From Deinococcales bacterium (GTDB lineage: Bacteria; Deinococcota; Deinococci; Deinococcales; JAAFIG01), in NCBI GenBank assembly GCA_025359505.1, contig JANYHH010000038.1, positions 1-64,000 of the forward strand: 64,000 nucleotides of DNA. The letters run 5' to 3'. A program made the position numbers and the translations under genes. Positions 1-64,000 of the stretch are shown in pieces (the first letter of the stretch is position 1; the number at the start of each line of letters is the position of its first letter). The notes beneath the pieces were generated by a model. The model saw nothing but the letters and a program-made list of their open reading frames with translations, did not search any database and was not told where the DNA came from.

Positions 1-220
1 TGCAACGCTCGAGCGCGTACTCGCGTCGCACGACCCCCAGCCGTTCCTGTCGGAACGAGCGCCCCCCTTCTTGCCCTGACAGCAGCACCTCACGGGCTTG
101 GGCGCTTCTTGCCCTTGAAGCAGCACCTCACGGGCTTGGGCGCTTCTTGATCCTAACCATGCACCTGACGGGCAGGATCGCTACTTCGCAGGGGGTGACT
201 TTTTTGTTGCCTCGAGCCGT
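1..220. other. Left-edge spacer with structured repeats
   Basis: No gene is supported here. Bases 1-60 may belong to a neighbour outside the window. Bases 71-184 hold three 38-base repeat units (separate entry). A T-rich stretch near 200-207 lies just downstream of the reverse-strand aldo/keto reductase, but I see no clear stem there. Confidence 0.5.
71..184. repeat. Three tandem 38-bp units, third diverged
   Basis: Units are 71-108, 109-146 and 147-184. The first two differ at a few positions. The third has diverged but keeps the length and the core gcacct.acggg. In units 1 and 2 a GCCC near the start can pair with GGGC near the end. In unit 3 these become GATCCT and AGGATC, which still pair, so both arms changed together. 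A relative lies near 41.4 kb on the other strand. Confidence 0.7.
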
Positions 221-1087
221 TTAGCTGTGCAGTTCGCTGAGCGCCTTAAAATCCTCATCATTCAGCTCGAGGCTGGCCGCTGCCGTGTTCTCCTCGAGAT
301 GCTTGACGCTGCCCGTGCCGGGGATCGGCAGCATCACGGGTGAGCGTTTCAGCAGCCACGCGAGCGCGACTTGAGATGGTGTGGCGTGGAGCTTGTTGGC
401 GATGGCGTCGAGTTTGCCACCGGGCTTGGCGAGGCTGCCGGTCGCTAGCGGAAACCACGGGATGAAGCCGATGCTGTTCGCCTCGCAGTAATCCAATACA
501 TCCTCGTGTTCGCGGTCGGCGAGGTTGTAACGGTTCTGCACGGTCGCCACGGGAAAAACGGCTCGAGCGGCTTCGATCTCTTTGACACTGACCTCGGACA
601 GTCCCAGATGCAGCACTTTGCCCTCGTCCTGAAAGGCTTTGATTGTCTGAAACTGCTCGAGCGCGGGGATTTTGGCGTCGATGCGGTGCAGTTGCCAGAG
701 TGGAATCTGCTCGAGTTTCAAGCGGCGCAGGCTCATCTCCAAGCATTGCCGCAGGTACTCGGGTCGGCCGACGGGCAGCCACTCGTTCGGGCCGGTGCGG
801 GTCAGTGCGCCTTTGGTGGCGACCACCATCCCGGCTGAGTAGGGGTGCAGCGTTTCAGCGATCAGGTCTTCGCTGACGAATGGCCCGTAACTGTCAGCCG
901 TGTCAATCAACTGAATTCCCAGCTCGGGCACGCGCTTCAAGGTGGCTCGAGCCTCGAGTGGGTCTTTCGGGTCGCCCCAAATGCCGTCGCCCGTTACACG
1001 CATCGCGCCGAAACCCAAGCGCACGACCTCGAGCGTGCCGCCGATCTTGAATGTGCCGCTTTTACTTGCATCAATCGTTGTTGTCAT
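221..1087 (-). CDS. Aldo/keto reductase family oxidoreductase
   Basis: A 288-residue protein that probably reduces an aldehyde or ketone with NADPH in the cytoplasm. The family's catalytic tetrad is visible: Asp and Tyr in [10 protein letters not shown], Lys in VVATKGA and His in WQLHRID. The C-terminal part has the expected cofactor-binding pattern ([14 protein letters not shown]). Length is normal for the compact bacterial branch. The start is ATG with a purine-rich GGCAGGGA upstream. It is followed by the structured repeats at 71-184 and shows no operon link with the lipoprotein hydrolase behind it. The substrate cannot be told. Confidence 0.9.
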
Positions 1088-1190
1088 TGATCCCTGCCTC
1101 CGCCTGTGAGTTTAATCTCTGCGGGTTAAACAACGCGTCTGAGTGGCAGTGCTGTCTGCACTGCAATGAAGCAGCCACCCCCTCGAGCGT

Positions 1191-2207
1191 TCACTGCGGC
1201 GGGAGTTTATGGGTCACGAAATCCAGCGCGTCCGCAATGGCGAGGTCGCGCTGATCGCCATTGCCGTGCGCCAAGCGGTCATAGACCAGCAGGTAACGCT
1301 GCTCAGACCAAACGGCTTTGGGCAGCGCAGCACCCGTCCACTTCAGTCCTGCGGCTTCGCAACCGCTCGGGGCGCTGGCCACCACGGTATTTGAGGCGTC
1401 AATGCGGTAACTACTAAAACCACCGATGTTGGCCGCCAGATCACAGGATTGACTGGGGAGCACAAACCAGTCCTGCACGCCGTGAACGATCAGCAGAGCG
1501 CCAGACCAGTTGCTGAGTGACGCAGCGTACTGGCGCGGCGAGCGCAGCGTGTACTGCTGCGGAACCTGAGCGGGCGTACCACCGAGTGCGCTTGTGACCA
1601 CCGCGTCCAATGCCTTTCCGACGAACTGCTTGGTGGCATCGCTCGAGGCGACGAGCCGCTGAATTTGCTGGTACTCCGCCGCCCAATCGCTCGGGCCGTA
1701 AAAATCGACCAGTACTTGCGCGGGCGCTCCGCGCTGCACCGCCCGCAAGCTGATGCAACCGCCGTGCGAACCGCCCATCACGGCCACGCTGGCGGGATTT
1801 GTGTAAGGCAAACCGCGCCCCAGCTCGAGCATCCGCAGCACGTCGTCAACCTCGCCTTGACAGACCTCGATTCCCCCTTCGGACGCGTTCTCGCCACGGT
1901 AAGACGACATCAGCACTGTGTAGCCAAAACCGGCGAAGACTTGGCAAAACGCCTCATCGCCCGCCTGCAAACCTTCGAAGCCACCGTGATTCCACAGCAG
2001 CACGGGAAATCGCCCGGTGCGGTTTGGGTGGCAAACCTGCCCGTTGATCCGCAAGCCGCCTGAGCGATACGAGACTTTTTCGCGCACGACGGTTGCGTCT
2101 TGATACGCGACTTGCACCGATTCCCACGGCGTTGCCAGCGGCTGAGCGGGCGTCGTACCCGCGCAGGCGCTCAAGCTGAGGATGATTGCACCAATCCATC
2201 TGTTCAT
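1191..2207 (-). CDS. Lipoprotein alpha/beta hydrolase (dienelactone hydrolase / prolyl oligopeptidase type)
   Basis: About 338 residues. I start at the ATG at 2207 rather than the GTG at 2222 because the protein then opens with a compact lipoprotein signal, MNRWIGAIILSLSAC, whose lipobox cysteine would be lipidated. The hydrolase core has PVLLWNHGGF as an oxyanion region and the nucleophile elbow GGSHGG (G-x-S-x-G). A late Asp in GVQDWF and His in DRLAHGNGD could complete the triad. It is therefore predicted to be a membrane-anchored esterase or peptidase facing the periplasm. The substrate is unknown. Spacing to neighbours suggests single transcription. Confidence 0.8.
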   Translation of the reverse strand: MNRWIGAIILSLSACAGTTPAQPLATPWESVQVAYQDATVVREKVSYRSGGLRINGQVCHPNRTGRFPVLLWNHGGFEGLQAGDEAFCQVFAGFGYTVLMSSYRGENASEGGIEVCQGEVDDVLRMLELGRGLPYTNPASVAVMGGSHGGCISLRAVQRGAPAQVLVDFYGPSDWAAEYQQIQRLVASSDATKQFVGKALDAVVTSALGGTPAQVPQQYTLRSPRQYAASLSNWSGALLIVHGVQDWFVLPSQSCDLAANIGGFSSYRIDASNTVVASAPSGCEAAGLKWTGAALPKAVWSEQRYLLVYDRLAHGNGDQRDLAIADALDFVTHKLPPQ

Positions 2208-2349
2208 GGCTGATCTTGGCACGGCTCAGCGAGCTTCTGGTGAGTCGCCCCGTCACCCAGCGAGCCTCAGAAATTCGCGGTCGGCTGATCCTCGAGCAGC
2301 AAGTGCCGTGCCTGCAACTTTGAGCCTCAGAATCCGCCGAGTTCGGAGG

Positions 2350-3021
2350 TCAATCCTTGGTTTCTTGTCCCTCGAGTGGCTCGAGAAACGACTTGATGTC
2401 CTCGGCGTTGTCGTGACCAGCTCGCAGCTCGCCTTGAAAGCCAATTAAGGTTAGTGTGCATGGTTTCACGTCGCCTGTGAGTTGCGGATTGATGTCGTTA
2501 ATGATCTGGTTCATCTCGCGCAGTAACCGTTTGTACTGTGCCGAAGTCAGATAAACCGTTCGGGCTTGAAAATGCGCTGGGTACGTCTGTACGGCATTTT
2601 TCTCGAGCCGCTTGGGTTTCGGCGGTAGACTTGAGGGTTCGACGAAGCCGATGGTGTGATAGTCGGGATCGTTGGCTTCGGCGCACTGCGCTTCGCTGGC
2701 TTCGTACGCTGGTAAAAACGCGGCTGATAACAGATTCAGCGCCCCTGCGATTGCCTCTTGGTACTCGAGCAGATTCTTACTATGCGTGAACTCTTTAGCG
2801 ACCAATTGGTAGTAGATGCGTTTGCCCTCGCGTTTGGTTTCAAACAGCAATCCCAGTTCCAGTCCGCGTTTGACATGGTGATGCACCAGATTGGCGGGCA
2901 TCCCTAGCTGCTTAGCGACATCGCTCGAGTTGCGTTCATATAAAAATTGATGCAGCACGGGCGTGTCGCGCAGGGTGCGGGCGGCTTCGGGGTTGGTCAG
3001 TCTGATGCGGTCTTTTTGCAT
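2350..3021 (-). CDS. Winged-helix transcriptional regulator (ArsR-like)
   Basis: 223 residues with an N-terminal winged helix-turn-helix at about 15-75 (RTLRDTPVLHQFLYERNSS, then VHHHVKRGLELGLL and a KRIYYQL wing). The C-terminal half (about 80-223) is not a recognised sensor domain; it contains a proline/lysine-rich linker and a region that may bind a ligand or dimerise. No metal-binding Cys pair of classical ArsR proteins is visible. It is divergent from the NfeD-like gene starting at 3158, so it could act on that shared 136-base region. Confidence 0.75.
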   Translation of the reverse strand: MQKDRIRLTNPEAARTLRDTPVLHQFLYERNSSDVAKQLGMPANLVHHHVKRGLELGLLFETKREGKRIYYQLVAKEFTHSKNLLEYQEAIAGALNLLSAAFLPAYEASEAQCAEANDPDYHTIGFVEPSSLPPKPKRLEKNAVQTYPAHFQARTVYLTSAQYKRLLREMNQIINDINPQLTGDVKPCTLTLIGFQGELRAGHDNAEDIKSFLEPLEGQETKD

Positions 3022-3157
3022 GGACGTATTGTGGCGCTTGCTATTTCAGTGCGCTACAAGCAGGGCTGAAATAGCCACTCTCGAGTCTCGTCCATAACCG
3101 AAATTCGTGAAACTTTCGCCTGCTCGAGCGCGTAATGTGATGTCGGAGGCGCTGCAT

Positions 3158-3745
3158 ATGTTTTTGGGGGCGATGGTGTTGGGATTGGTTGGTTTGGTGG
3201 CGATGTCACTGCTTGGCTTCACACACGGACACGCGGCGCATGGGCATTCAACGCACGGGCACGCAGGTCACGCGGACGCAGGTCACGGCGCTCAGGGTCA
3301 CTCGAGCCACGGTCACGACTCGAGCGGTGCGAAATTACTGGCGTTCCTCTCGCCTCGGGTGCTGTTTAGTCTGGCGCTAGGCTTTGGCGCGACGGGTTTG
3401 GTGGCGGACGCGTTCTTCCCGCTGTGGGTCGCGGTGATCCTCGCGGCGGTCGGGGCATTGGCGCTCGAGCGGCTGGTCGTCTATCCGTACTGGAATTGGT
3501 TGATGCAGTTCGCCAGCGCTCCAGCCGAGATGATGTCTGATACCTTGCGGGCCAAGGGACGGGCGGTGACGCGCTTTGACTCGAGCGGCTCGGGGCTGAT
3601 TCGTTTGGAGATGGACGGTCAGGTGCGCCAAGTGCTGGGGACGCTGACGTTGGAGCAGCGCGGGATCACCGTGCTGGTCGGCGATGCGGTGCGGGTCGAA
3701 GCGGTCGATCAAAACGGTAATTGCACGGTGTCTAAACTGCTGTAA
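3158..3745 (+). CDS. NfeD-like membrane protein with histidine-rich loop
   Basis: About 195 residues. I chose the ATG at 3158 because GGAGG (3145-3149) precedes it; a GTG at 3107 and an ATG at 3139 are in frame. There is an N-terminal membrane segment (MFLGAMVLGLVGLVAMSLLG), then a roughly 35-residue stretch in which every second or third residue is His or Gly (repeats like HGHAGHAD), two more membrane segments, and a C-terminal OB-fold-like domain (about 125-195). That layout matches short NfeD proteins, partners of flotillins. The flotillin gene follows 121 bases downstream. The His-rich segment is unusual for NfeD and could bind metal ions (inference). Confidence 0.75.
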   Translation: MFLGAMVLGLVGLVAMSLLGFTHGHAAHGHSTHGHAGHADAGHGAQGHSSHGHDSSGAKLLAFLSPRVLFSLALGFGATGLVADAFFPLWVAVILAAVGALALERLVVYPYWNWLMQFASAPAEMMSDTLRAKGRAVTRFDSSGSGLIRLEMDGQVRQVLGTLTLEQRGITVLVGDAVRVEAVDQNGNCTVSKLL

Positions 3746-3866
3746 TCCAAACAGTGATTGCGGCTTTAGGTCTGCCCCTCGAGCATCGTCTCGAGTGCAG
3801 CGCTTCAAACGTGGTGTCTCGAGCGCACTTTCGTTCACGCAGCGTCTCGAGCGAGAAGGAGTTTGT

Positions 3867-5081
3867 ATGGATTTCGGAGTTTTCACGCCCATCATCATCG
3901 CGCTGATCGTCATTCTCGTGGCGATTCCACTGATCGTCTCGAGCTTTCTGAGGAACGTCGAAGCCGGTTCGATCCGCATGGTTTCGTGGCTGAACGGCAG
4001 CACCCGCATTTATCGCGGGCCCGGCAAGAGTCTCGAGGTTCCGCTGTTCACGCAAGGCACGACGCTCTCCAGTAAGGCCATTAACGTGGATTTGGATATC
4101 ACCGATCAGACGGCTGATATTGACGATAAGGGCATTCCGCGCCCAATTAAGATTCAGGTGCTGGCGTCAGCGATTGTCAGTGTCGGTGACACCGACGCGT
4201 TGATTCGCACGGCTGCCAACAGGTATTTTGCCAAGCCAGACGTGGAGCAACTCAACACGCTCTCTGACCTGCTGACCAGCGCAGGGCGCAGGGCGATCAA
4301 CCTGCTGACCCACGATCAGTTGTTCAGTGCCAAAACGCCGGGGCAGCGCTCGGAACCAGCGCCTGACAGCGAGGACGACGATCCCTTGGCGATTATTATT
4401 CGCAAAGCGTGCAGCAAAGAGTTGACCGATCTGGGTCTGATCTTTAACAGCCTCAACATCAAAGTCGTGCGCTCCGAAGTCGCCGAAGCCCGCCGCCGCC
4501 AGAGCGCGGCCGAAGCCCAAGCCAGCGCCGATATCGTCAGCACGCAGCAGGCCCGTCGCGCCCGCGAAGCGCAGCTCGAGGCGGAGCGCACGATCAGCGA
4601 CAAAACCCGCGAGTTGGAGCAGACCAAGGCCAGCAACGCCGCGCTGGTCGCGCAGGCTGAGGCTTTGAAGCAGGACGCATTGGCGGCTCAGCGCAGCGCC
4701 GAGCTTCGCGCCACGCAGATCGCGCAGGCCGACGCCGACGCGGAGCGCGTGAAGATCGCCGCCAAAGCAAGTGCCGAATCCGAGGCGATTAAGATCAGCA
4801 CGATTGCCACGGCCAACGCCGAGGCGATTCAGAAGGTCAATCAGGCCATCGCCGATGGCGGTGAGTTGTACCTGCGCTACCGTCAGGTCGAGATGCTGCC
4901 GCAGCTTGTACCGTTGATTGCCGACGCGTTGGCGCAATCGAAGCTGATTACCGTTTCTGGTGGCGAAAACGGTGGTGCGGGTGGTCAGACCGCCGCGCAG
5001 ATTCAGAGCGTGATCCAAACCGTGCTGGCCGCGCAGCTCATCACCAAATCGGGCGTGCTCGAGTCAGGCAAAAGCGGCTGA
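3867..5081 (+). CDS. floA: Flotillin-like SPFH protein
   Basis: 404 residues. The ATG at 3867 is set by GAGAAGGAG at 3852-3860. An N-terminal membrane hairpin (IIIALIVILVAIPLIVSSFL) is followed by the SPFH/band 7 domain (about 30-200) and a long Ala/Glu-rich coiled coil (about 210-350) with many EA and AE dipeptides, as in flotillins. The C-terminus carries the oligomerisation region. Flotillins assemble in membrane microdomains. The NfeD-like gene just upstream supports the assignment. A strong terminator at 5116-5144 closes this pair. The gene symbol is by family only. Confidence 0.85.
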   Translation: MDFGVFTPIIIALIVILVAIPLIVSSFLRNVEAGSIRMVSWLNGSTRIYRGPGKSLEVPLFTQGTTLSSKAINVDLDITDQTADIDDKGIPRPIKIQVLASAIVSVGDTDALIRTAANRYFAKPDVEQLNTLSDLLTSAGRRAINLLTHDQLFSAKTPGQRSEPAPDSEDDDPLAIIIRKACSKELTDLGLIFNSLNIKVVRSEVAEARRRQSAAEAQASADIVSTQQARRAREAQLEAERTISDKTRELEQTKASNAALVAQAEALKQDALAAQRSAELRATQIAQADADAERVKIAAKASAESEAIKISTIATANAEAIQKVNQAIADGGELYLRYRQVEMLPQLVPLIADALAQSKLITVSGGENGGAGGQTAAQIQSVIQTVLAAQLITKSGVLESGKSG

Positions 5082-5115
5082 TCTCGAGTTGCGAAACCGT
5101 GTGACCTCGAGCTTG

Positions 5116-5144
5116 AAACCTGAGTCTATGTGACTCAGGTTTTT
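5116..5144 (+). terminator. Rho-independent terminator after flotillin
   Basis: A 10-base-pair stem, AACCTGAGTC with GACTCAGGTT around a TATGT loop, ends in a run of T (5140-5144). It lies 35 bases after the flotillin stop codon. Confidence 0.9.
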
Positions 5145-5416
5145 ACTTACATCGTTGCTCAAGATACATTGCCTAATTACGCTCGAGGGTTAAGCTTTGC
5201 GTCAAGATCAAAACAGGGCTGAAGAGGTCACTGTGCGGTCTCGAGCGCAAAGTTTTTGTCAGGGCGCGGTATGATGTGGCAGTAAGGGTCGAGCGACACC
5301 CCTGAACGCGAAGTTTGCTGAGGCTAGACACCGCCTTTAAGCGTGCCAGCGCATTCCCTCGTGGATGCCTCAATAAAGTCATTCACGGTAGGCCAAGCAA
5401 CAGAACAGGAGACACA
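5145..5416 (+). other. Upstream region of lon 1
   Basis: No gene is seen. A TATGAT at 5270-5275 could serve as a -10 box, but no good -35 hexamer sits 16-18 bases before it. CTTTGCG near 5195 and CGCAAAG near 5246 form a widely spaced inverted pair. No HspR-type operator like that of lon 2 was found here. Confidence 0.4.
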
Positions 5417-7879
5417 ATGCGTTGGGAATTACCCGTTTTAGCACTTCGCAACATGGTCATCGCCCCCGGTCACGCGCAGAGCATCGCGGTCGGGCGCGTC
5501 AAAAGCCGCCGCAGCGTCGAGGAAGCGCAAACGGCGGATCGCCGCGTGTTGCTCTTAACCCAGCGCGATCAGAACAACGACGATCCGATGGGCGAGGATT
5601 TGTACGACATCGGTACGCTCGCGGCGATCAAGCAAGTGGTGCGGATGCCCGATCAGACGCTCGAGGTGCTGGTGGAACCCTTGGAGCGCGTCAAGGTCAG
5701 TGCGTACTTGCCATTGCCGTACCTGCGGGCGGTCGCCGAAACTTTGGAGAGCGAACCCGATGCCGACAGCAACACCTTGCGCGTGCTGATGGACGAAGCC
5801 AAATCGAGCTTTGACAAGTACGTCGCGCAGAACAAGAACTTGCGCCTCGACAACATCCATTTGGAGCACCTGCGCCAATTGAGCGAACCGAGCCAAGTCG
5901 CGGACACCATCGGCTTTCACGCCTCTTGGGAGGTGGCTGAAAAGCAAGACTTGCTCGAGACTTTAAGCATCCGCGAGCGTCTGGAAAAGGTCGTCAAGCT
6001 GCTCGAGCGCGACCTCGAGCGTTTTGAAATGGACAAGAAGATTGCCGCCCGCGTCAAAGAGCAGATGGATCAAAACCAGCGCGAGTATTACCTGCGCGAG
6101 CAGATGAAAGCCATCGGCAAGGAACTCGGTGGCGGCGAGGACAGTGTCGCAGAAGTCGACGACCTACGCCAGCGCGTCGAAGCTGCTGGCATGCCCGCCA
6201 AGGTCAAAGAGAAGGCGCTCAAAGAAGTCGCCCGTTTGGAGCGCACGCCCGGCGGCAGCCCCGAAACGACCGTCGTCCGCAATTACATCGACTGGCTGCT
6301 GGACACGCCGTGGAACAAGCGCGACGAGGAAATCTTAGACATCAAACGCACCCGCGATATTCTGGACGAAGATCACCACGGCTTAGATGAGGTCAAGGAG
6401 CGCATCCTCGAGTTTCTGGCCGTGCGCCAATTGACGCAGGACATGCGGAAAAACGTCGCCGAGATCGGCGATAAAGACGCCAAGGACAAGCCCGAAGATT
6501 TGGAGCTTCGCGCCCCGATCCTCTGCCTCGTCGGCCCTCCGGGCGTCGGCAAGACCAGCCTCGGTAAAAGCGTCGCTCGAGCACTCAACCGCCAGTTCGT
6601 CCGCATGAGTCTCGGTGGGGTGCGCGACGAAGCCGAGATTCGCGGTCACAGGCGCACGTACATCGGCTCCATGCCCGGTCGGATCATTCAGAGCATGAAG
6701 CAGGCTGGCGTCGTCAACCCGATTATTCTCTTGGACGAGATCGACAAGATGGCTTCTGACTGGCGCGGCGATCCCGCCTCGGCGATGCTCGAGGTGCTCG
6801 ACCCAGAGCAGAACCACACCTTCCAAGACCATTACTTGGAGGTGCAGTATGACTTGTCGCAGGTGATGTTCATCACGACCGCCAACAGCCTCAACACCAT
6901 TCCGCGCCCGCTGCTGGATCGCATGGAAGTCATCGAAATCCCCGGCTACACGCTGGATGAGAAACTGGCGATCGCCAAGGGCTTCAGGCTGCCGCGCCAG
7001 ATTAAATCCCACGGTCTGGGAGACAAACTCGAGATCACCGATGCGGCTTTGAAGCGCTTGATTCAGGAGTACACCAAGGAAAGCGGCGTTCGCAATTTGG
7101 ATCGCCAAATTCAGAAACTCACCCGCAAAGCCGCTCGAGGCTTATTAGAGAAGCCGTGGGATGGTGTGAAAAGCATTGATGCCGAGGAAGTCGAGGATTA
7201 CCTCGGCGTGCCGATGTTCGAGATTGAAAGTAAAGAGAAGGTCTCGCAAGTCGGTGTGTCGCAGGGCATGTATTACTCGCCCGTCGGCGGCGGCATTCTG
7301 CTGATCGAGACATTGGCTACGCCCGGCACGGGCAAGGTCAGTTACACGGGTAGCTTAGGCGACGTGATGAAGGAAAGCGTGCAGGCGGCGCTGGCGTACT
7401 TACGCGCCCACGCAACCGAGTACGGCGCTGACCCGGACTTCTACAAGAATCTGGACATCCACGTTCACTTCCCGTCGGGTGGCACGCCCAAGGATGGCCC
7501 GAGTGCGGGCATTGCGATTGCGACCAGCGTCATCAGCGCGATCACCAAGCGCCCCGCCCGGGCAGACGTGGCGATGACCGGCGAGATTTCTTTGCGCGGC
7601 AAGGTGCTGATTATCGGCGGTGTCAAAGAGAAGCTGCTCGGCGCGTACCAAGCGGGCATCCGCACGGTGATCCTGCCCAAAGGCGACGCGCCGTTCCTCA
7701 AGGACGTGCCGGAAGCGATCAAAAACGACATGGAAATCCACCTCGTCGAAGACGTGCGCGAAGTCCTCGAGATGATGCTCGAGGATCGGGTGGAGGAGAC
7801 GGACATGCGGCCAACTGCGGGTCTCGAGGGGGTCACGCCCCCGCCCGTCAGTCCCGTGATCCCGCAGCCCGGCGTCTGA
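5417..7879 (+). CDS. lon: Lon protease 1 (ATP-dependent, La type)
   Basis: 820 residues, the usual size of a bacterial Lon. The start is the ATG at 5417 behind ACAGGAGA; an in-frame opening further upstream lacks the family's sequence. Order: LON substrate-binding domain (about 5-200), coiled region, AAA+ module with Walker [10 protein letters not shown] and Walker B ILLDEIDK, and the C-terminal S16 protease domain with the catalytic Ser in KDGPSAG and the Lys in GGVKEK. It degrades damaged and regulatory proteins in the cytosol. A strong terminator follows at 7892. A second, clearly different Lon is encoded at 25447-27930. Confidence 0.97.
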   Translation: MRWELPVLALRNMVIAPGHAQSIAVGRVKSRRSVEEAQTADRRVLLLTQRDQNNDDPMGEDLYDIGTLAAIKQVVRMPDQTLEVLVEPLERVKVSAYLPLPYLRAVAETLESEPDADSNTLRVLMDEAKSSFDKYVAQNKNLRLDNIHLEHLRQLSEPSQVADTIGFHASWEVAEKQDLLETLSIRERLEKVVKLLERDLERFEMDKKIAARVKEQMDQNQREYYLREQMKAIGKELGGGEDSVAEVDDLRQRVEAAGMPAKVKEKALKEVARLERTPGGSPETTVVRNYIDWLLDTPWNKRDEEILDIKRTRDILDEDHHGLDEVKERILEFLAVRQLTQDMRKNVAEIGDKDAKDKPEDLELRAPILCLVGPPGVGKTSLGKSVARALNRQFVRMSLGGVRDEAEIRGHRRTYIGSMPGRIIQSMKQAGVVNPIILLDEIDKMASDWRGDPASAMLEVLDPEQNHTFQDHYLEVQYDLSQVMFITTANSLNTIPRPLLDRMEVIEIPGYTLDEKLAIAKGFRLPRQIKSHGLGDKLEITDAALKRLIQEYTKESGVRNLDRQIQKLTRKAARGLLEKPWDGVKSIDAEEVEDYLGVPMFEIESKEKVSQVGVSQGMYYSPVGGGILLIETLATPGTGKVSYTGSLGDVMKESVQAALAYLRAHATEYGADPDFYKNLDIHVHFPSGGTPKDGPSAGIAIATSVISAITKRPARADVAMTGEISLRGKVLIIGGVKEKLLGAYQAGIRTVILPKGDAPFLKDVPEAIKNDMEIHLVEDVREVLEMMLEDRVEETDMRPTAGLEGVTPPPVSPVIPQPGV

Positions 7880-7891
7880 GGAAACCCAGTC

Positions 7892-7925
7892 AAAGCGCAG
7901 CCCCGATTCGGGGCTGCGCTTTTTT
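7892..7925 (+). terminator. Rho-independent terminator after lon 1
   Basis: An 11-base-pair GC-rich stem, AGCGCAGCCCC with GGGGCTGCGCT and a five-base loop, is followed by TTTTT. It starts 13 bases after the lon stop. Confidence 0.95.
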
Positions 7926-8039
7926 ACGGCTCGAGCGATGAATCTCGGGGGGTGCTGGAGGTCGTGCTCGCCACCAGCAAGCTCGAGTCTCCGAAACGAG
8001 AACTCGAGCGACGCTGGCTTTCCCTTTTGCTTACCGTCC

Positions 8040-8453: not shown

Positions 8454-8489
8454 ATGAAGACCTCTTCTGAGTAAATTGTCAAACACTGG

Positions 8490-9515: not shown

Positions 9516-9623
9516 CTAAAAGTTAGTTTAGCCGATCTAAACTGGAAACTTGGTGATTTACCGGGTTGACTTGGGTCGAGTGAATTGTGTAAAGGTCTAC
9601 AAAACTGTTGCGGTAATCTTTGA

Positions 9624-9675
9624 GCAGTGCTGAGTTCGCTTGTCCTCGAGCAATGCTGAGTTCGCTTGTCCTCGA
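9624..9675. repeat. Two tandem 26-bp units upstream of SPFH gene
   Basis: Units 9624-9649 and 9650-9675 differ at a single base (gcag versus gcaa at the start), and each ends in CTCGAG. They lie in the divergent spacer between the M23 and SPFH genes. I see no further copies. Confidence 0.8.
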
Positions 9676-9781
9676 GCGATTGGGAACGGTCACTGCATTG
9701 GGGGCGTACTGTGAAGCTGAGAGCGAGATGAAGCACTGGGGCTGCGCGGCAGCCCCCGATGGACTCGCTCGAGGAGGCGTT

Positions 9782-25446: not shown

Positions 25447-27930
25447 TTACGCGCTGGCTCGGGCTTGTTTAGTCCTCAACGCTCGAGGGGCTTTTTTCGG
25501 TGGCGCGTCGGCGATGGCTTGACGCTCCAAACTCTGCAACCCGCCGACCAGTGCGACCTCGAGCACCTGATCGAGCGTTTCGCAGGGGTGAAAGGTCACA
25601 CTGCGGCGCAGGTGCAGCGGGATGTCGTGCAGATCGGCTTCGTTTTGCTTGGGCATCACGACGTGCTTGATGCCAGCGCGTCGCGCCCCTAAGACCTTCT
25701 CTTTCAAGCCGCCGATCGGTAGCACGCGGCCCGTCAACGTGATCTCGCCGGTCATGCTGACATCGTGGCGCACGGGCACACCCGTCAGGGCGCTAATCAG
25801 GCTGGTGGCGATCGTCACGCCCGCACTTGGGCCCTCTTTGGGGACTGCGCCCGCTGGGACGTGAACGTGAATCTCGGAATCGTCGAGCTTGGTGAGCGGG
25901 ATATGGAAACGCTCAGCGTTTTTCTTGGCGTATGAAAGCGCGGCCCTAGCCGATTCCTTCATCACATCGCCCAGTTGACCCGTGAGGATGAGTCCCTTGC
26001 CGGGCAGCACGCTGGTTTCGACGAACAGAATGTCGCCGCCGACTGGTGTGTAGAACATGCCCGTGGACACGCCAACCAAATCGTCCTTGTTTTCGGTTTC
26101 GACCTGATAGCGTTGGGGCCCGATGTATTTCTCCAAATCAGTTTCGCCGATTCGAACGCGCTTCAGATCGCCGTTGGCCAGTTTGCGAGCGGCTTTTCGC
26201 AGCAGCGTCCCAACCTCGCGCTCCAAGTTACGCACGCCCGCCTCGCGGGTGTAATGCTGAATCAGCTTCTGCAATGCGCCGTCGGTCAGCAACACCTGAT
26301 TGGTTTTCAGACCGTTTTCCTCAGTCTGGCGCGGCAGGATGTACTTCTTGGCGATCTCGAGTTTCTCGGCTTCGATGTAACTTGAAAACTCGATGAACTC
26401 CATGCGATCTAAGAGCGGCGCGGGGATCTGATCGGGGTAATTGGCAGTCGCAATGAACATCACTTCACTCAGGTCAAATGGAATGCCCAAGTAGTGATCG
26501 GTGAAGCTGCCATTCTGCGCGGGGTCGAGCACCTCGAGCAATGCACTCGAGGGATCGCCCTGATACGACGTGCCGAGCTTGTCCACCTCGTCCAGCAGGA
26601 ACACTGGGTTCTTCGTGCCAGCGGTTTTCAAGCCCTGAATAATTCTGCCCGGCAGCGCCCCGATGTACGTGCGCCTGTGCCCGCGAATGTCGGCTTCGTC
26701 CCTCGCACCGCCCAAAGCGATGCGAACGTATTTGCGTCCCAAGCTGGCGGCGATGCTCTTAGCGATGCTGGTCTTGCCAACGCCCGGAGGGCCCACGAAG
26801 ACCAGAATCGGGCCCTTGTTGACCTGATCGGTTCCCAACTCGCCTTTTTCAACCCTTGCTTTCCTGAGCTGTCGCACGGCCAGATACTCGAGCACGCGGT
26901 CTTTGACTTTCTCGAGACCAAAGTGATCCTCTTCTAAGGTCGCGGCTGCGGCTTTGATGTCCAGTTGATCGTCGCTGCGCGTGTTGAACGGTAGTTCGGT
27001 GATCCACGTCAGGTAAGTGCGGATCACGCTGGCTTCGGCGCTGTCTGGGTGCATCCGTGCCAAGCGGTTGAGTTCGCGGTCAACCTCTTTTTGCGAATCC
27101 TCGGGCAGCGCGAGCGCCGCGATCTTGGCGCGGAACGCCTCAACCTCGTCGTCGCCCTCTTCCTCACCGCGCAGCTCTTTTTGAATCGCTTTCATCTGCT
27201 CGCGCAAAAAATACTCGCGTTGATTGCGGTCAATTTCCTCTTTGACCTGCGTCTGGATGCGCTGCTGGGCCTGCGCCAGCTCCAACTCTGAGACAAGCAA
27301 CACCAGCACGCGCTTCATGCGCTCTAAAACACTGGTTTCCTCTAGGATCGCTTGGCGGTCTTCGATCGAAAAATCGAAATTGAACGCAATGTGATCCGCC
27401 AGTTGCGTGGGGCTTTCCAAGGTTTGAATGAACTGCACGGTGTCCTGCTGCAAGGTCTTGTTTTTGACGACCTCGTTGAAGCGCGTCTCCAACTCGCGTT
27501 TCATCGCCAGCATCGAAGCGGGATCGCTGACCACATCCTCGAGCAGTTCAACCTCGGCTTCGATGTACTCCGGCCCGAAGTGGTAACGCAGCACTTTGGC
27601 GCGGCTTTGAGCCTGCACCAGCGTGCCGACCGTGCCGTCCGGGTTTTTACGCATCCGCAAAATCGTGCAGACCGTACCGACATCGTACAAGTCGGCGGAT
27701 TTGGGTTCGTCGATGTCTTTGTCGCGCTGTGAGACGATCAGAATCTGCTTCTCACCGTCGGCGGCCAGTTGCAGCGCCGCGACGCTGATGCTGCGTCCAG
27801 CGTCGACGCTCTGGACGATGCTGGGGTAAATCACGCTGCCGCGCACGGGGCAGACTGGAACGCGCAGGGTCTGAGGTTCACCTTGGCTCGAGGGGGGTTG
27901 AATGGTGGCTGTTTTCTTTGGTCTTGGCAT
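25447..27930 (-). CDS. lon: Lon protease 2
   Basis: 827 residues. A Lon with the same layout as the 5.4-kb gene but clearly diverged: LON domain (about 20-225), Walker [10 protein letters not shown], Walker B FLLDEVDK, catalytic Ser in KEGPSAGVT and Lys in GGLKEK. The basic tail ([13 protein letters not shown]) differs from the other paralogue. AAAGGAG lies before the ATG. A HAIR-like operator 20-40 bases upstream suggests heat-shock control by an HspR protein. Paralogous Lons with split roles are known in Deinococcus. Confidence 0.97.
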
Positions 27931-27970: not shown

Positions 27971-28396
27971 GATTCTGCTTTTGCGTATGCAGTTTGTGAC
28001 ACCAGTTTGGGTGTCTACGCTCAGCAATGCTACCGCGCCTCGAGCAAATTGGAATGCGAAGTCTACTGAGTGTGCTCGAGGTGCATCATGCTCACGGCAC
28101 GGGGCTATGCGATCACGCGGGCGCAACATGTATCTTGAGGCGCAACTCATGCACCTTCGGGCTGGGTCGCTGCGCCCCTACGAGCTGCCGTTCACGCTCT
28201 GAACTCAAAATATGGTTTTTGCTAACAGCAACTACTGAAGCCTGACTCTCGAACGTTCCATTCCGTAGGGGCTTGCCACTGCAAGCCCCGTGCGACAGCC
28301 GGACGACGAAGCGGCAACGATTTACCGCAATGACTTCGCGGTTGCCCTCGAGCCAACATTCTCGAGTCTCGAGCCGAGCGTTATAGACTGACCCGC
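27971..28396. other. Divergent spacer with GTAGGGGC elements
   Basis: No supported gene. A half-element GCGCCCCTACG lies at 28172-28182 and a full palindrome at 28265-28290. CTCGAG sites are clustered near 28351-28375. The promoter for the methyltransferase gene cannot be pinned down. Confidence 0.5.
28265..28290. repeat. GTAGGGGC palindromic element (copy b)
   Basis: GGGGCTTGC (28268-28276), a four-base loop and GCAAGCCCC (28281-28289) form a 9-base-pair hairpin preceded by GTA. The same sequence, inverted, is at 62111-62137, identical over about 27 bases. Confidence 0.8.
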
Positions 28397-30021: not shown

Positions 30022-30078
30022 GCTCCCCACTCGAGCAGTGTTTTTTCGCGGCTCGAGGCTCGAGAGGATGGTTGGCAC

Positions 30079-36595: not shown

Positions 36596-36675
36596 CGCTC
36601 GAGAGTCAACTCGAGGCTCGAGACGGGTGATTTGCAGTTCAAAGTTCACGTCTTCTGTGCTGTCGGTGACGCGTT

Positions 36676-37589: not shown

Positions 37590-38483
37590 TTACTTGTCCG
37601 TCGCGCATTTGAACTTATCGAACGGAATCTTAAAAGGGACACCAAGTTGATCGACGCGGTTGTTCTTGGTGTAATTGATGATCGTGCCTGACGAGATCGT
37701 CGCGCCGCTTTTACGGTTGACGTTCTTCGCTGGAATTTTCCTAGCGATATCGCCGATCACCCACGCAGTGTCCTTCGCATCGTCGTAATACAGCGCCTCG
37801 CCGGTCGTGACGTTATCACCAGCCTCGAGCTTGACGCCGCCACTGGCGATCAACGTGTTGGTGTCGGTGTCGACACGCACGTCCTTCGCCGTAATCACAA
37901 GGCGGTTATCGCCCGCTTTTTTAGGTTCGCGCACCACACCCACCGAGCGCGGATCGGACAGGCAGCCTAAACTCGAGTCTTCGTCGTAGACAATCTTGGC
38001 GCTGGTGGCGGTTTGTGTGCCGTTGACCAGTTTGACGCTGCCTTCCGACGTGGAGACGTTGGTGTCCACGTCGAAGGTCGCTTTACCCGCCGAGATCAGC
38101 ACGTCGTCCTCGCCCGCTTTTTGCGGCTTCTGCACGATCTTGGCGGGGCCAGTCAGCACACCCAAACCGCTGGTCTCGCGGTACTCGAGGCTCGGGCCCT
38201 GCGCGGTCAAGCGCCCTCTGGTGACGGTCACGCCGCCCAGAAAGGTTGCTGTGCGCTTGCCTTCACTGCCCGCGACGGGCGTACCGTCGGGCGCGGTCAG
38301 CGTCGCTTTGTCGCTGGCGATCCCGAGTTTCTGCACACTCCCTTTAACGTTCCCCGTGAACTCGAGGCTCGAGGCTCGAGGCGAACCGTTTTGCTTGTCG
38401 GCCTGAATCTCGATCACCCTCGAGCCAGCCGCTAACGCGATGCCGAACGCGAGCAGTGCCGCGATGCTCAGTATCTTTTTCAT
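37590..38483 (-). CDS. lptA: LptA/OstA-like periplasmic protein 1
   Basis: 297 residues. AAAGGAG sets the ATG at 38483. Signal peptide MKKILSIAALLAFGIALAAG is followed by several OstA repeats (ADKQNGSPRASSLEFTGNV and, later, ISAGKATFDVDTNVSTSEG, TAKDVRVDTDTNTLIASGG). The pattern of paired strands fits LptA, which bridges the periplasm. It overlaps the LptC-like gene by 4 bases and is followed by a second OstA protein. The gene symbol is by family only; the lipid carried in this phylum is not LPS in the usual sense. Confidence 0.8.
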   Translation of the reverse strand: MKKILSIAALLAFGIALAAGSRVIEIQADKQNGSPRASSLEFTGNVKGSVQKLGIASDKATLTAPDGTPVAGSEGKRTATFLGGVTVTRGRLTAQGPSLEYRETSGLGVLTGPAKIVQKPQKAGEDDVLISAGKATFDVDTNVSTSEGSVKLVNGTQTATSAKIVYDEDSSLGCLSDPRSVGVVREPKKAGDNRLVITAKDVRVDTDTNTLIASGGVKLEAGDNVTTGEALYYDDAKDTAWVIGDIARKIPAKNVNRKSGATISSGTIINYTKNNRVDQLGVPFKIPFDKFKCATDK

Positions 38484-55482: not shown

Positions 55483-55542
55483 TGGTAGGCGTTCATTCTG
55501 TCCCGTGGAGCCGCGAAATTGCAATCTCGAGTAAATTAGTTC

Positions 55543-56169: not shown

Positions 56170-56179
56170 GATTCTGAGC

Positions 56180-58910: not shown

Positions 58911-58958
58911 GCGTTACACAATAAGCGCTGCTACACAAAAACAAAGTGCAGATTTGAC

Positions 58959-59312
58959 CTAGCTGCCCCGGTACGTGCTGTAGCCGTAAGGCGACAACAG
59001 CAGCGGCACGTGGTAATGCCCGCTGGCTTCACTGACACAAAAACGAATCACGATCACCTCGAGAAACGCCGGATCGGGCAACTCCAAACCACACGCCCGC
59101 AAGTAATCCCCCGCCTGAAACTCGAGTTGATACGCGCCCATCGGGATCGTCTCACCGCTCAGCAGCGCTTCGTCGGTGCGCCCGTCGCTGTTGGTGACGG
59201 TCGTTTTCAGGTGAACTCGAGCCTCACTTGAGACGCTGTATAAATCAATCCGCACGCCCGCAGCGGGTTTCCCTCGAGCCGTGTCGAGGATGTGCGTGCT
59301 CAGCCGCGCCAT
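58959..59312 (-). CDS. uraH: 5-hydroxyisourate hydrolase (transthyretin-like)
   Basis: 117 residues from the ATG at 59312. The family ends YRGS, and the N-terminal LSTHILDTARGKPA with the active His/Arg pattern is seen. It hydrolyses 5-hydroxyisourate, the uricase product. The start overlaps the uricase stop, so the two are co-translated. Confidence 0.93.
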   Translation of the reverse strand: MARLSTHILDTARGKPAAGVRIDLYSVSSEARVHLKTTVTNSDGRTDEALLSGETIPMGAYQLEFQAGDYLRACGLELPDPAFLEVIVIRFCVSEASGHYHVPLLLSPYGYSTYRGS

Positions 59313-60160
59313 TAACGCCTGACCGTCACGCCCAAGATTCCGTAAAACGGTTTCGACACCGTGAACAGCCCAGCCTCCGCGCCGTCCAGCACCATGTCCC
59401 ACGTGTGGTTCTGCCCCTCGAGTTCGATCTCACGAATCACTGCACTAGCCGCGATGACGTTTTGCCCCATCTTGTAAATCACCTGCTGGATGCTGCCGCT
59501 GGTCACGTCGTTGAACGTCTGCTCGAGCGTCGCATTGACGGCTTTCACCAGCTCGAGATCGGTGCGTAACCCGTCACTGACATCGCCGTAGCGCCATGCG
59601 ACCTCGAGCTTCATTCGCAGTGGGCGGTCTTTCATCTCTGGCAACGTCGTGTACTCGTCGCGCACGAAACCGTAAAACGCGCTGCCGGACAGACGCAGCA
59701 GCTCGTACCCATTGATGCTCGAGACGAGATCCTTGACGATCACCGCGCCGTCAGCGTCGCGCTCGAGCCAAATTTGCGCGGCTGATCGCGCTCCGCTCGA
59801 GGGTCGCCAGCCCGACGCGCCGACCGCATCGAACGGAACCTGCGTCGCCGTCAGCTCCGCGCCCTCAGCCTGCGGGTATTTCTCCAAGAACTTTTTGCCA
59901 AGAAAATAAGTCAGCCCCTCGAGCGATGCGCCGTCGTAATTCAGCGTTTCACGCTGCACGAAGTTCTTCATGCTGTCAGTCGCCACCAAACCCGTGTTGT
60001 CGCCCGTCGTGTACGTCGTCCAGAACCCATCGCCCCAGATCACGATCGTGACTGCCGCCGCGAGGATCGGCGCATCGCGCCCGTCGCGGTGCAAGCGGTA
60101 AACGATAGTCTCGCCTTTGCCGTAGTAACTGGACTTCTTGCCGCTGAGGAGTTGGCGCAT
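59312..60160 (-). CDS. uaZ: Urate oxidase (uricase)
   Basis: 282 residues from the ATG at 60160. The N-terminal SYYGKGETIVYRLHR and the TDSMKNFV motif (active-site Thr and Asp) are clear, as is the later RSNHTWD-like end region (GQNHTWDMVLD). It oxidises urate to 5-hydroxyisourate without cofactor. A GTAGGGGC-type end (CGCCCCTAC) lies near 60208 in the spacer to uraD. Confidence 0.9.
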   Translation of the reverse strand: MRQLLSGKKSSYYGKGETIVYRLHRDGRDAPILAAAVTIVIWGDGFWTTYTTGDNTGLVATDSMKNFVQRETLNYDGASLEGLTYFLGKKFLEKYPQAEGAELTATQVPFDAVGASGWRPSSGARSAAQIWLERDADGAVIVKDLVSSINGYELLRLSGSAFYGFVRDEYTTLPEMKDRPLRMKLEVAWRYGDVSDGLRTDLELVKAVNATLEQTFNDVTSGSIQQVIYKMGQNVIAASAVIREIELEGQNHTWDMVLDGAEAGLFTVSKPFYGILGVTVRR

Positions 60161-60244
60161 GGGTGATTCTAACTTACAAGGCGAGGCGTGCGTCACGCAT
60201 TTGTGTGCAAGGCACAACGCCCCTACGGTTCGTTACGCACGCAT

Positions 60245-60739
60245 TCAGCTCGAGATCAGCGCCTCGAGCCGAAACCGCGCAATTTTTTCGATCTCCTCGA
60301 GCGCGGTTTGAAACTCCTGTCCCAGATCATGGTGAACGCGAGCCTCGAGCGCAGCGCGAACATCGTTTTTGTCTTTGCCCTTAACCGCCAGAATGAACGG
60401 AAATCCAAACCGAGCGCGATACGCACGGTTCAGCCCTAAGAGCGCCGCGTGTTCAGTCGGCGTCAAGCTGTCCAGTCCAGCCCCGCGCTGCTCAGCTACC
60501 GAGTCCGAAGTCATGCTGATTCGCGCCGCGAGTTCTGGGTGCGCCCTGATTAACTCGAGCTGCTGGTCGCGTGACGCTGCCCGCATCGCCTTGCACATCG
60601 CCGCGTGTAACGCAGTCAGGCTCGAGAATGGGCGCTGGTCGGTGACGCTTGCTGCGACCCACGGCGAATGCTCGAAGATCGCGCCGAGCGCGTCGATGAA
60701 CGCGTGTGGCTCGAGTGTGTTGAGATTGAAGATGGTCAT
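60245..60739 (-). CDS. uraD: OHCU decarboxylase UraD
   Basis: 164 residues. HSPWVA with catalytic His near residue 23 and LIRAHPELAARI are conserved. It decarboxylates 2-oxo-4-hydroxy-4-carboxy-5-ureidoimidazoline to S-allantoin. Overlaps the guanine deaminase stop by 4 bases. Confidence 0.92.
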   Translation of the reverse strand: MTIFNLNTLEPHAFIDALGAIFEHSPWVAASVTDQRPFSSLTALHAAMCKAMRAASRDQQLELIRAHPELAARISMTSDSVAEQRGAGLDSLTPTEHAALLGLNRAYRARFGFPFILAVKGKDKNDVRAALEARVHHDLGQEFQTALEEIEKIARFRLEALISS

Positions 60740-62037
60740 GTTGTCTCCCTCGAGTGAACGCAGTCACCCTCGATCCAAACCTGCGCGATGCTCTCGCTGC
60801 CCGCCAGCGCGAACGCTGCCGACAGCATCCTCTGGAGCGAATCTGCGTGCTGAAAGACTTGCTCGAGCGGATCGCCTTTTCTAGGTTTGACCCAGACGGC
60901 ATCGAACGATTTGCCGACCGTGAAATCGCCACACGTCCCCTCGAGTCCCAAGGCTTCCGCGCCTGCGAGTGTTGACAGGTACAGCATTTGCGCCGCATTC
61001 ATCGTCACACCGTCTGGCGCGAGGCGCTGCAAACTGTAGGCTTGCAAGGCTTCTTTTAAGACGCCGTAACCCGTGCCGCCGCCGATATCCGTTCCGAGCG
61101 CGACCCTGACGTTGTGCTGCAAATGCCGCCCCAACCCAAAAAATCCACTGCCAATCGCGGCGTTGCTGCACGGGCAATGCGCGACGCTCGAGCCGGCTGC
61201 ACTTAAGCGCTCGAGTTCAGAGGTCGAGGCGTGCAAGTTATGCGCCAGCAGCGACCTCGAGCCGATCAGGTCGTAGCGCTCGTAAGTCTCGAGGTAATCC
61301 CGTGCCCACGGGAACAGCCGTCTGACCGTCGCAATCTCGTCAACGTTCTCGTTGATGTGCGTGTGAAAACGTGCGGTTGGCGTCTCTGTCATGAGCTGCT
61401 GGCAAACCTCGAGCATCGCTTCACTAGCGGACAGCGAGAAGCGCGGCATCACCGCGTACTGGGCGCGACCCACACCGTGGAAACGCTGGATCAGAGCGCG
61501 TCCGTCCTCGAGCGCTGATGTTGGCGTCTGGTGAAGCTCCGGGCGCAGCAATCGGTCTGACAAGACCTGTCCGCTGACAACCCGCAAGCCCCTTGCTGCG
61601 CCCTCCTCGAACAGCGCCGCTTGTGCCCCAGCAAAATGTGCCCCGAAGACCATCGCGCTGGTCGTGCCGTGCATCAACAGCGCCCGCACAAACGCACTGG
61701 CGACGCCTCGAGCGTAGCTGACATCTGAGAGCCGCGCCTCCTCGGGGAGCGTGTTCAACTCGAGCCAGTCCAACAGCGTCATCCCCAGCGCCCCGATCAC
61801 CCGCACCTGCGGGTAATGCACGTGCGCGTCCACCAAACCCGGCAGCAGCAAGCCGCCGCGCAAATCTGTACTCTCGAGATTCGGGTAAAGCGTTCGCAGG
61901 CTCGAGAAATCTCCAACTGCCACGATCTTCCCGCTTTGCACCACGATCCCCGCATCCGAGATTGCCTCGAGCGAGCCGCCCTTGAACGGGTTCTGCGGTG
62001 TGTGCAGCAGCGAAGCGCGGTACAGCGTGTCTGGCAT
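60736..62037 (-). CDS. guaD: Guanine deaminase
   Basis: 433 residues from the ATG at 62037, the length of E. coli GuaD. Metal motifs DAHVHYPQ, FHTHINEN, HNLHAS and GTDIGGG mark the amidohydrolase site. It turns guanine into xanthine. Xanthine dehydrogenase, needed to reach urate, is not here. Confidence 0.93.
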   Translation of the reverse strand: MPDTLYRASLLHTPQNPFKGGSLEAISDAGIVVQSGKIVAVGDFSSLRTLYPNLESTDLRGGLLLPGLVDAHVHYPQVRVIGALGMTLLDWLELNTLPEEARLSDVSYARGVASAFVRALLMHGTTSAMVFGAHFAGAQAALFEEGAARGLRVVSGQVLSDRLLRPELHQTPTSALEDGRALIQRFHGVGRAQYAVMPRFSLSASEAMLEVCQQLMTETPTARFHTHINENVDEIATVRRLFPWARDYLETYERYDLIGSRSLLAHNLHASTSELERLSAAGSSVAHCPCSNAAIGSGFFGLGRHLQHNVRVALGTDIGGGTGYGVLKEALQAYSLQRLAPDGVTMNAAQMLYLSTLAGAEALGLEGTCGDFTVGKSFDAVWVKPRKGDPLEQVFQHADSLQRMLSAAFALAGSESIAQVWIEGDCVHSRETT

Positions 62038-62110
62038 GGCTGGAAGGTTATCAAAAAAAACGCGGCGAACGTCAATGACCCGTTCGCTGCATTGATTGGT
62101 CGCGCTCGAG

Positions 62111-62137
62111 CGGGGCTTGCAGTGGCAAGCCCCTACG
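62111..62137. repeat. GTAGGGGC palindromic element (copy f)
   Basis: GGGGCTTGC (62112-62120) and GCAAGCCCC (62125-62133) form the hairpin, followed by TAC. In the opposite orientation it equals the element at 28265-28290. It lies between guaD and the exported-protein gene. Confidence 0.85.
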
Positions 62138-62147
62138 TAGTGGATTG

Positions 62148-62558
62148 CTATTGAGACTTTACAAGTGGGATCACGTTGAACGTCGGTGAAATTAAAGCTG
62201 TTCCCGAATTGACTTCGATTCCACGTACAACACTTCCTTTGCGAACGGTTACGAAAGCGACAACACCGCTGATCCAACCTTTAGCGGACAGCATCTTCGG
62301 CTCCTGTCCAAGAACATTCTTTAATGTATTTGCATCCGCTTCTCGAGCTTTGAGAAATGGAGTCATCTTCCCTGACGGTGCGAAACGAATGTAGGTACTG
62401 TTTCCAGTCAAGGTTAATTCGACAGAAGTAATTCGGGGCGGATTTGGAGACTTAGGGTCTGCAACATATGTTCCGTAAACTGATGGCGCAACTGCATATG
62501 CTTGACCAAGAGTGAGCAACATTATCGTTGCAGCAAATAAAAATCTCGAGATTTTCAC
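62148..62558 (-). CDS. Small exported protein of unknown function
   Basis: 136 residues from a GTG at 62558 that overlaps the BMP stop (GTGA). A signal peptide (ISRFLFAATIMLLTLGQAYA) is followed by a Pro/Ser-rich stretch and strands. No known family is recognised. The base composition is lower in GC than its neighbours and CTCGAG sites are sparse (two), suggesting recent arrival. Confidence 0.7.
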   Translation of the reverse strand: MKISRFLFAATIMLLTLGQAYAVAPSVYGTYVADPKSPNPPRITSVELTLTGNSTYIRFAPSGKMTPFLKAREADANTLKNVLGQEPKMLSAKGWISGVVAFVTVRKGSVVRGIEVNSGTALISPTFNVIPLVKSQ

Positions 62559-63712
62559 TTGGCTGGTTCGTCTGCGATCTCGCCCAGCACGCCCGGCGCG
62601 ACCCAGCCCATGCTGTTGAGATCGCCGATGCTGGCGACTTTGCCCGCTGGCACGCGCAGGATGCCGTTGCGATCCATGATCGGGCCGGTGTACGGGTCAA
62701 ACGTCGGCTTGGCGCTGCTCATGTCGGCATTCAGCGCCATCACGCGGTCGTAGACATTGGTTTTCTTGCCTGCGACGGTGATGCTGACGGCTTTCAATCG
62801 TGCCATGAACTTCGGGTTGATTGGCATACCGTTCTGAGCGCCCAACTCGACGGCTTTCTCGCGCAGCAACCACCAGTAGTCCACATTCTGCAAGGATTTG
62901 GTGTTGTAACCGCCCGCGACGACTTTCTTCATGAAGTCGATGTAGATTTTTTCCCAGTGAACGAGCTGACCGCTGACCACAACGTCGGGGCCAAACTTGT
63001 ACATGCTGTTGTAATGCGAAAAGACGGGGATGTTCTTCTTGGCGGCCGTTTGCACCACCGTTGCGGTGTCCTCGGTGAAGGCGAGCGCTTCCGCGCCCTC
63101 AGAGATCAGGGATTCAGCGGCTTCCCTTGCTTTCACGGGATCGAACCATGCGTTGATCCACTTGACGTTGACGGTCGCCTTTGGATTCACCGCTCGAGCG
63201 CCCAGCGCGAATGCGCTGATGTGACGCTTCAGCTCGGGGATTGGAAACGCACCGACATACCCTAATTTGCCGGTTTTGCTCAGCGCCGCCGCCATCATGC
63301 CGTTCAAATAGTAAATTTGGTAGAAATCCGCCATGTACGTCGCCATGTTCGGAGCGCGTTTGTAACCGCTGGTGTGCGCGAAGATCACATCGGGGTACTT
63401 TTTGGCAGCCTCCAAAGTCTGATCCATGAATCCAAAGCTGGTCGTGAATACAACCTTGCAACCGTCACCGACGAGCTTATCAATCGTGGGCATCGCTTGG
63501 GCTTCGGGGACGCTTTCAACAAATTTCGTCTCCAAGCCGGGAATGGCTTTCTCGGTCAGCAGGCGAGCTTCGTTGTGGGCAAACGTCCAGCCGATATCAC
63601 CGACGGGCCCGACGTAGACGAAACAGGACTTGGGGACGGACGTTTGAGCGCTGCTGTGTAAGCCCACTCCCACGAGTCCCGCGACGGCCGCCAACATCAA
63701 AACGTTCTTCAT
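62555..63712 (-). CDS. BMP-family nucleoside-binding lipoprotein/ABC substrate-binding protein
   Basis: 385 residues. AGGAGG lies before the ATG. A signal peptide (MLAAVAGLVGVGLHSSAQ) precedes the BMP/PnrA fold (GDIGWTFAHNEAR, then TTSFGFMDQTLEAAKKYPDV, FAHTSGYKRAPN and VDYWWLLREKAVELG). These proteins bind purine nucleosides for an ABC importer. It adjoins a permease gene that runs off the right edge and the guanine/urate pathway, which fits nucleobase salvage or use. Confidence 0.92.
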   Translation of the reverse strand: MKNVLMLAAVAGLVGVGLHSSAQTSVPKSCFVYVGPVGDIGWTFAHNEARLLTEKAIPGLETKFVESVPEAQAMPTIDKLVGDGCKVVFTTSFGFMDQTLEAAKKYPDVIFAHTSGYKRAPNMATYMADFYQIYYLNGMMAAALSKTGKLGYVGAFPIPELKRHISAFALGARAVNPKATVNVKWINAWFDPVKAREAAESLISEGAEALAFTEDTATVVQTAAKKNIPVFSHYNSMYKFGPDVVVSGQLVHWEKIYIDFMKKVVAGGYNTKSLQNVDYWWLLREKAVELGAQNGMPINPKFMARLKAVSITVAGKKTNVYDRVMALNADMSSAKPTFDPYTGPIMDRNGILRVPAGKVASIGDLNSMGWVAPGVLGEIADEPAK

Positions 63713-63844
63713 ACTTGCCTCCTAAGGACGTTCCCGCCTTGCGAGACGGGTTAAACGAAAATACCAACCCGCTGTTCAAAGGGTGCTGCTCGAGGATTTA
63801 CTTTCGAGCAGGGAGGTTTGAAACGCGAATCTCGAGCCGAGCTG

Positions 63845-64000
63845 CTAACGTTCACCACGCCGATACGGTCGTCCGAGGCTTTCGGGCGCATTGCCCTGCT
63901 GACCCCGAGCGCCGATCACTGCGAGTACCACAATAACAAGAATGTACGGTAGCGCGGCCAATACTTCTGTGGGGACAGCCACGCTGCCCTGCAACCTGAA
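63845..64000 (-). CDS. ABC permease of BMP transporter, C-terminal fragment
   Basis: 52 codons to the stop, continuing beyond the window. The reverse reading FRLQGSVAVPTEVLAALPYI (a membrane helix) and the end LGRPYRRGER fit the last helix and tail of nucleoside ABC permeases of the NupQ/YufQ type. It is upstream of the BMP gene on the same strand. Confidence 0.8.
   Translation of the reverse strand, partial: FRLQGSVAVPTEVLAALPYILVIVVLAVIGARGQQGNAPESLGRPYRRGER

Follow-up and report, generated by a model that had tools for sequence, protein, structure and literature searches.

Highly iterated palindromes (HIPs) have been described in cyanobacteria, where HIP1 (GCGATCGC) and the alternates GGCGCC, rCCGGy and GCsGC are found (PMC4390886, PMC6604393). 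Most of them reach about 500-2,500 copies per Mb, rCCGGy more, and Synechocystis has one copy per 1,131 bp (PMC4390886, PMC6604393). In the methyl-directed repair model of HIP1, a saturation near 1 kb has been argued. What iterated palindromes do has been debated since HIP1, and the CTCGAG system reported here bears on this question. CTCGAG is the recognition site of XhoI and PaeR7I; a restriction-modification system of this kind would deplete the word, whereas we found it enriched.

In the window, the whole 64-kb stretch of DNA that was analysed, CTCGAG is the top over-represented hexamer. The observed 408 copies compare with 27.3 +/- 4.5 (maximum 38) in dinucleotide shuffles and with 20.6 predicted from composition, a 19.8x excess. 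A sequence-only reading had claimed an extreme iteration of this palindrome, which proved real and larger than stated. Its estimate of about twenty copies in the first 3.1 kb agreed with the exactly 20 that we counted, and all four clusters that it named were recovered (Table 1). As it had described, the sites lie in coding and spacer DNA, in 3/3 codon phases and between genes. The density of 6.4/kb was even along the window (median gap 102 bp), and 2-kb bins had a mean of 12.8 and a variance of 12.6, as in a Poisson distribution. The suggested octamer-type palindrome was instead a hexamer, with only 62/408 sites reading as GCTCGAGC.

Table 1. Location of CTCGAG sites and site clusters in the window
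Feature	Span	Sites	Strand	Basis
CTCGAG, 408 copies, even spread, mean spacing 157 bp	1..64000		.	count and shuffles
CTCGAG pair, 7 bp apart	28361..28373	28361/28368	.	
CTCGAG pair, 7 bp apart	30052..30064	30052/30059	.	
CTCGAG triple cluster	36598..36622	36598/36610/36617	.	
CTCGAG triple cluster, 7 bp between neighbours	38361..38380	38361/38368/38375	.	

A longer motif with preferred bases at -3/+3 was rejected, the flank effect being an avoidance of GRGCYC. GAG or GGG stood directly before CTCGAG in 0/3,932 flanks. The iterated word is not HIP1 proper (GCGATCGC, core CGATCG), and this core occurs in the window at 0.58x. The second most enriched palindrome of the window was AGCGCT (63 copies, 3.1x). 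Two distinct genes for Lon (endopeptidase La), both full-length, lie in the window at 5315-7879 (+) and 25447-27930 (-), about 18 kb apart, and one of its proteins is 69% identical to Deinococcus.

The statistics were built on whole-genome counts and sampled stretches. In the window's own genome (4.23 Mb, 127 contigs), CTCGAG was found 27,118 times and the reversed word GAGCTC 9 times; the bias is therefore not restricted to the window. Part of this contrast is an avoidance of GAGCTC, and the fair excess of CTCGAG is 20-45x over expectation. When CTCGAG was counted in all 111 genomes of the class, the bias recurred in graded strength through most of the order. Each of the four genomes of the window's family holds 26,600-28,200 copies, about 6 per kb, and the density was about equal at 46, 51 and 59% G+C. 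This family and genus g11 of a sister family reach 6-8 per kb. Intermediate levels were found in a Meiothermus-like, a Marinithermus/Oceanithermus-like and a third family, where the word was raised in all phases and 3-20x in most contexts, and in a Thermus-like genus and G004 it was at or below codon expectation (the group names are inferred from codon usage, short matches to Thermus and Allomeiothermus plasmids and the Deinococcus-like window protein). In a background of 80 genomes, gathered via Lon, the highest ratio was 8.2 and the median 0.5. The excess thus runs genome-wide far above composition and Markov expectation, and lineage-wide with graded strength. The densest stretch seen (L010, G016:C1:1-4800) had 59 CTCGAG in 4.8 kb, or 12.3 per kb.

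Most other palindromes were strongly avoided. In 111 kb, comprising the window and the G000 stretches L001-L003, GGYRCC, CCWGG, CTGCAG and TGCGCA were at or near zero and GGWCC was at 1% of expectation; GRGCYC was at 0-14% of expectation in the window's family. This avoidance suggests heavy past or present restriction. The own genome has nine Eco57I-type matches and several C5 and N4/N6 methyltransferases, and its restriction-modification loci hold 5.5 CTCGAG per kb, near the average.

Genes were called on the sampled stretches by a simple codon-score method, and the codons lying outside the sites supplied the frequencies for the expected CTCGAG numbers. Across G012 and the four genomes of the family, the ratio of observed to expected was 21-103 in the phase CTC/GAG, 23-48 in phase 1 and 27-57 in phase 2; between genes it was 30-45. 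The between-gene odds factor of the strongest genomes was near-constant at about 30-45, corresponding to log-odds of about 3.4-3.8. Since the word is enriched in every codon phase and between genes, independently of the reading frame, it is a DNA-level trait and not codon usage. In the Thermus-like genome, codon preference does suffice to explain the word (observed/expected 1.0 in phase 0), but elsewhere phases 1 and 2 and the intergenic DNA were enriched 20-57x after codon correction, and the enrichment was constant while G+C ranged over 46-59%. It is therefore hardly conceivable that the word is a by-product of codon usage, composition or the avoidance of other sites.

The bias also reaches the proteins. 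Between 66 and 81% of the Leu-Glu dipeptides were written CTCGAG, against 2-10% expected. Leu-Glu itself was 2.0-2.6x as frequent as expected from the amino-acid composition, Glu-Leu 0.9-1.1x. The excess of the one dipeptide without an excess of the other shows that the CTCGAG force alters proteins. Synonymous and amino-acid choice are both changed, and the proteins are rewritten.

Beyond 20 bp the gaps between CTCGAG sites were geometric, and a regularity near 1 kb was looked for and not found. Together with the Poisson-distributed 2-kb bins, the geometric gaps point to a force that acts per site and not per kilobase. Between genera of the family, 44-56% of the CTCGAG sites were kept, compared to 10-19% for all hexamers; some of this may reflect convergence where Leu-Glu itself is conserved. 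The non-conserved sites differ by 1-5 bases. A mutational cold spot was rejected as an explanation, because an about 35-fold lower loss would keep nearly all sites. Between genes, the transition neighbours TTCGAG, CCCGAG and CTTGAG were at 1.5-2.4x of expectation, whereas the transversion neighbours were mostly near 1. This accumulation indicates that sites decay by ordinary mutation and that near-misses persist, which likewise counts against a cold spot. CTTGAG/CTCAAG stood at 0.9x in the window and was about 2x enriched between genes; a by-product of Vsr-type repair would need these T:G near-misses to be depleted, which they were not. Taken together, the random spacing and the build-up of near-misses argue against uptake sequences, Vsr-type repair and a saturation of HIP1 repair at about 1 kb.

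A DNA uptake sequence would accumulate through biased uptake and recombination, as a molecular drive. The uptake sequences (USS) of Haemophilus and Neisseria accumulate in this way, and they resemble CTCGAG in being short genome-wide words with an effect on proteins that are scarce in new DNA, being rarer in new segments and in constrained coding DNA (PMC7811141). They occur about once per kb, and an uptake word would be spaced more evenly than random, whereas CTCGAG is about six times as dense here, is randomly spaced above 20 bp and has no regular spacing at fragment scale. With a median gap of 102 bp, almost any fragment would hold several sites and the bias in uptake would vanish. Uptake sequences reportedly affect proteomes, as Findlay and Redfield are said to have found in 2009. 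The Thermus-like genus is without the CTCGAG bias, although Thermus is naturally competent. We regard an uptake function as very improbable.

We then considered plasmids and phages. CTCGAG was enriched on pMESIL01 of Allomeiothermus silvanus (2.26/kb) and pOCEPR01 of Oceanithermus profundus (2.66/kb), and no enrichment was seen on Thermus pTT27 and three Deinococcus plasmids. The Meiothermus phages MMP17 and MMP7, which are close relatives and not two independent cases, contain 87 and 90 CTCGAG (2.6-2.7 per kb, 7.8-8.1x), and 50-52% of their Leu-Glu is coded CTCGAG. Judging from their annotations (Mu-like, excisionase), the Meiothermus phages tested are probably temperate. Eight IMG/VR relatives with a terminase 74-95% identical had 1.8-3.7 per kb. 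Riverbug, a homologous Thermus phage whose terminase is 66% identical, had 0.68 per kb (2.0x), with 14/75 Leu-Glu written CTCGAG, below the codon prediction of 0.37; three other Thermus phages had 0.12-0.43 per kb. Over 22 kb of aligned MMP17 and Riverbug DNA, 56 sites were found in MMP17 and 13 in Riverbug, 3 of them in common. On pMESIL01, three transposase/integrase genes had 0 CTCGAG in 3.6 kb, where about 8 were expected, suggesting that the word builds up with residence time. Since phages and plasmids track the CTCGAG level of the host, the simplest assumption is a host factor that works in trans on the DNA residing in the cell, and a role confined to the organisation of the chromosome is disfavoured.

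Two IMG/VR sequences deserve mention. A relative of MMP17 with a terminase 54% identical (L418 1-13748, IMGVR_UViG_3300031472_000086) has 0 CTCGAG versus 4.6 expected, and the host of this phage may restrict the word. The contig L351, among the densest matches listed, is also rich in GTCGAC, GAGCTC and GACGTC and was set aside as a compositional case.

Our preferred reading, to which we give a probability of about 0.4, is that CTCGAG is a highly iterated palindrome outside the cyanobacteria, belonging to a Deinococcota order and arising from biased fixation by a host repair or recombination factor. This would be a methylation-independent, sequence-specific drive on chromosome, plasmid and phage, with the hexamer filling nearly all the synonymous positions open to it and the proteins pushed to Leu-Glu. 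Both the factor and the stage where the bias comes in are inferred. A putative trans-acting host factor would recognise the CTCGAG duplex in replication, repair or recombination, and the resolution of heteroduplexes would favour the strand bearing CTCGAG. Sites would be gained one by one in any DNA that stays in the cell for long enough. The order would have had the factor from its common ancestor, with the greatest strength now in the window's family and in one genus of a sister family; the Thermus-like genus and G004 may have lost or overridden it. Biased conversion and weak selection of equal strength fit the data alike.

A possible alternative, nearly as likely as biased fixation, is that CTCGAG is weakly selected across the genome as a binding site or 'self' mark. 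Here, a host nuclease or a defence/repair protein would spare or process CTCGAG DNA, in effect like Chi, and chromosome, plasmids and phages would all benefit from the word. This is consistent with the tracking of the host level by phages and plasmids and with the conservation of the sites between genera. The genomes strongest in CTCGAG also avoid other palindromes most, as efficient selection would give. A protein footprint would account for the pairs 8-17 bp apart, which were about half as frequent as expected (samples of G000-G003 and G012). However, this deficit fits hairpin avoidance equally well, and pairs at 7 bp, where no loop is possible, were not depleted. CTCGAG is its own reverse complement and lacks the strand polarity on which Chi depends; it is thus not a Chi-type site, which is strand-polar and non-palindromic. 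AddAB-like gene pairs were found in both the enriched genomes and the Thermus-like genus, and AddAB presence was therefore rejected as an explanation.

The remaining candidate was a methylation-linked HIP as in cyanobacteria. CTCGAG would then be marked by an orphan methyltransferase and enriched through an epigenetic function or through mismatch repair directed by the mark. Every strongly enriched cyanobacterial oligomer had a candidate cognate methyltransferase (PMC4390886), and an orphan CTCGAG methyltransferase is known in Nocardia (PMC4752239), where the sites are clustered next to dnaA, whereas here they are uniform and very dense. We searched 19 genomes for methyltransferases (METHYLTRANSFERASES: PF00145, PF01555, PF07669, PF02384 and PF02086) and clustered the genes. 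In these five families, no gene was common to all enriched genomes and no orthologue was common to 4/4 members of the window's family. The methyltransferases were many and patchy, as in restriction-modification systems. This negative result is strong evidence against a gene common to the group and weaker evidence against genes confined to single lineages, and an unusual or divergent methyltransferase may have escaped the search. The enriched genome G006, a single contig, is without PF00145, PF01555 and PF02086. It has one PF07669 gene, with relatives in the unenriched Thermus-like genus, and a PF02384 match in a 530-aa ORF with the size of a type I HsdM. None of the genome's methyltransferase-family matches lay on the window's contig (C92), as the sequence-only reading had noted for the window. 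For the XhoI-family endonuclease (PF04555) there were 0 matches in the 19 genomes, and the control genomes also gave 0. Random spacing, moreover, contradicts a saturation at about 1 site per kb. A methylation-linked origin is thus unlikely.

In MMP17, a gene annotated as a Vsr-like endonuclease adjoins a D12 adenine methyltransferase (L408 26062-27388, minus strand). MMP7 likewise has a DUF559 gene and a DNA adenine methylase, and the homologous Riverbug is without such an annotation. Relatives of the MMP17 methyltransferase were found in G059, G012, G001, G085 and pOCEPR01. It was rejected as the common factor, since PF02086 was not found in G006, G008, G062 and G070. Of the roles proposed from the sequence, uptake is thus countered by the random spacing and the density, and methylation by the lack of a conserved system in the five families, whereas a repair or recombination drive or a self mark is more probable.

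The order includes cultivated bacteria of the Meiothermus type, which have phages, and offers natural contrasts in close relatives with and without CTCGAG and in homologous phages on two hosts. This separates hypotheses that cyanobacteria could not, as the phage data do for a purely chromosomal role. The simple form of the published repair model is hard to reconcile with the random spacing and with the lack of a shared methyltransferase. A hexamer bias able to double the frequency of a dipeptide matters for codon models, phylogenetics and phage host prediction.

In the open-licence literature searched, a scope outside which most subscription journals lie, there was no report of a CTCGAG element. 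The likeness to HIP1 that the sequence had suggested holds, as this Deinococcota genome, too, has a palindrome iterated throughout. CTCGAG behaves as a HIP and has three of the four defining features: one palindrome is over-represented genome-wide, in coding and spacer DNA alike, and the bias extends through a lineage at graded strength, some members having lost it. The fourth, a cognate methyltransferase in the enriched genomes, was not found as a shared gene of the five families, and this is the main departure from the cyanobacterial class. CTCGAG also differs from the cyanobacterial HIPs in its sequence, its phylum and its random spacing. At 6,400 per Mb here, its density is at least about 2.5 times that of most cyanobacterial HIPs, and effects on amino acids and on phages are documented for it here.
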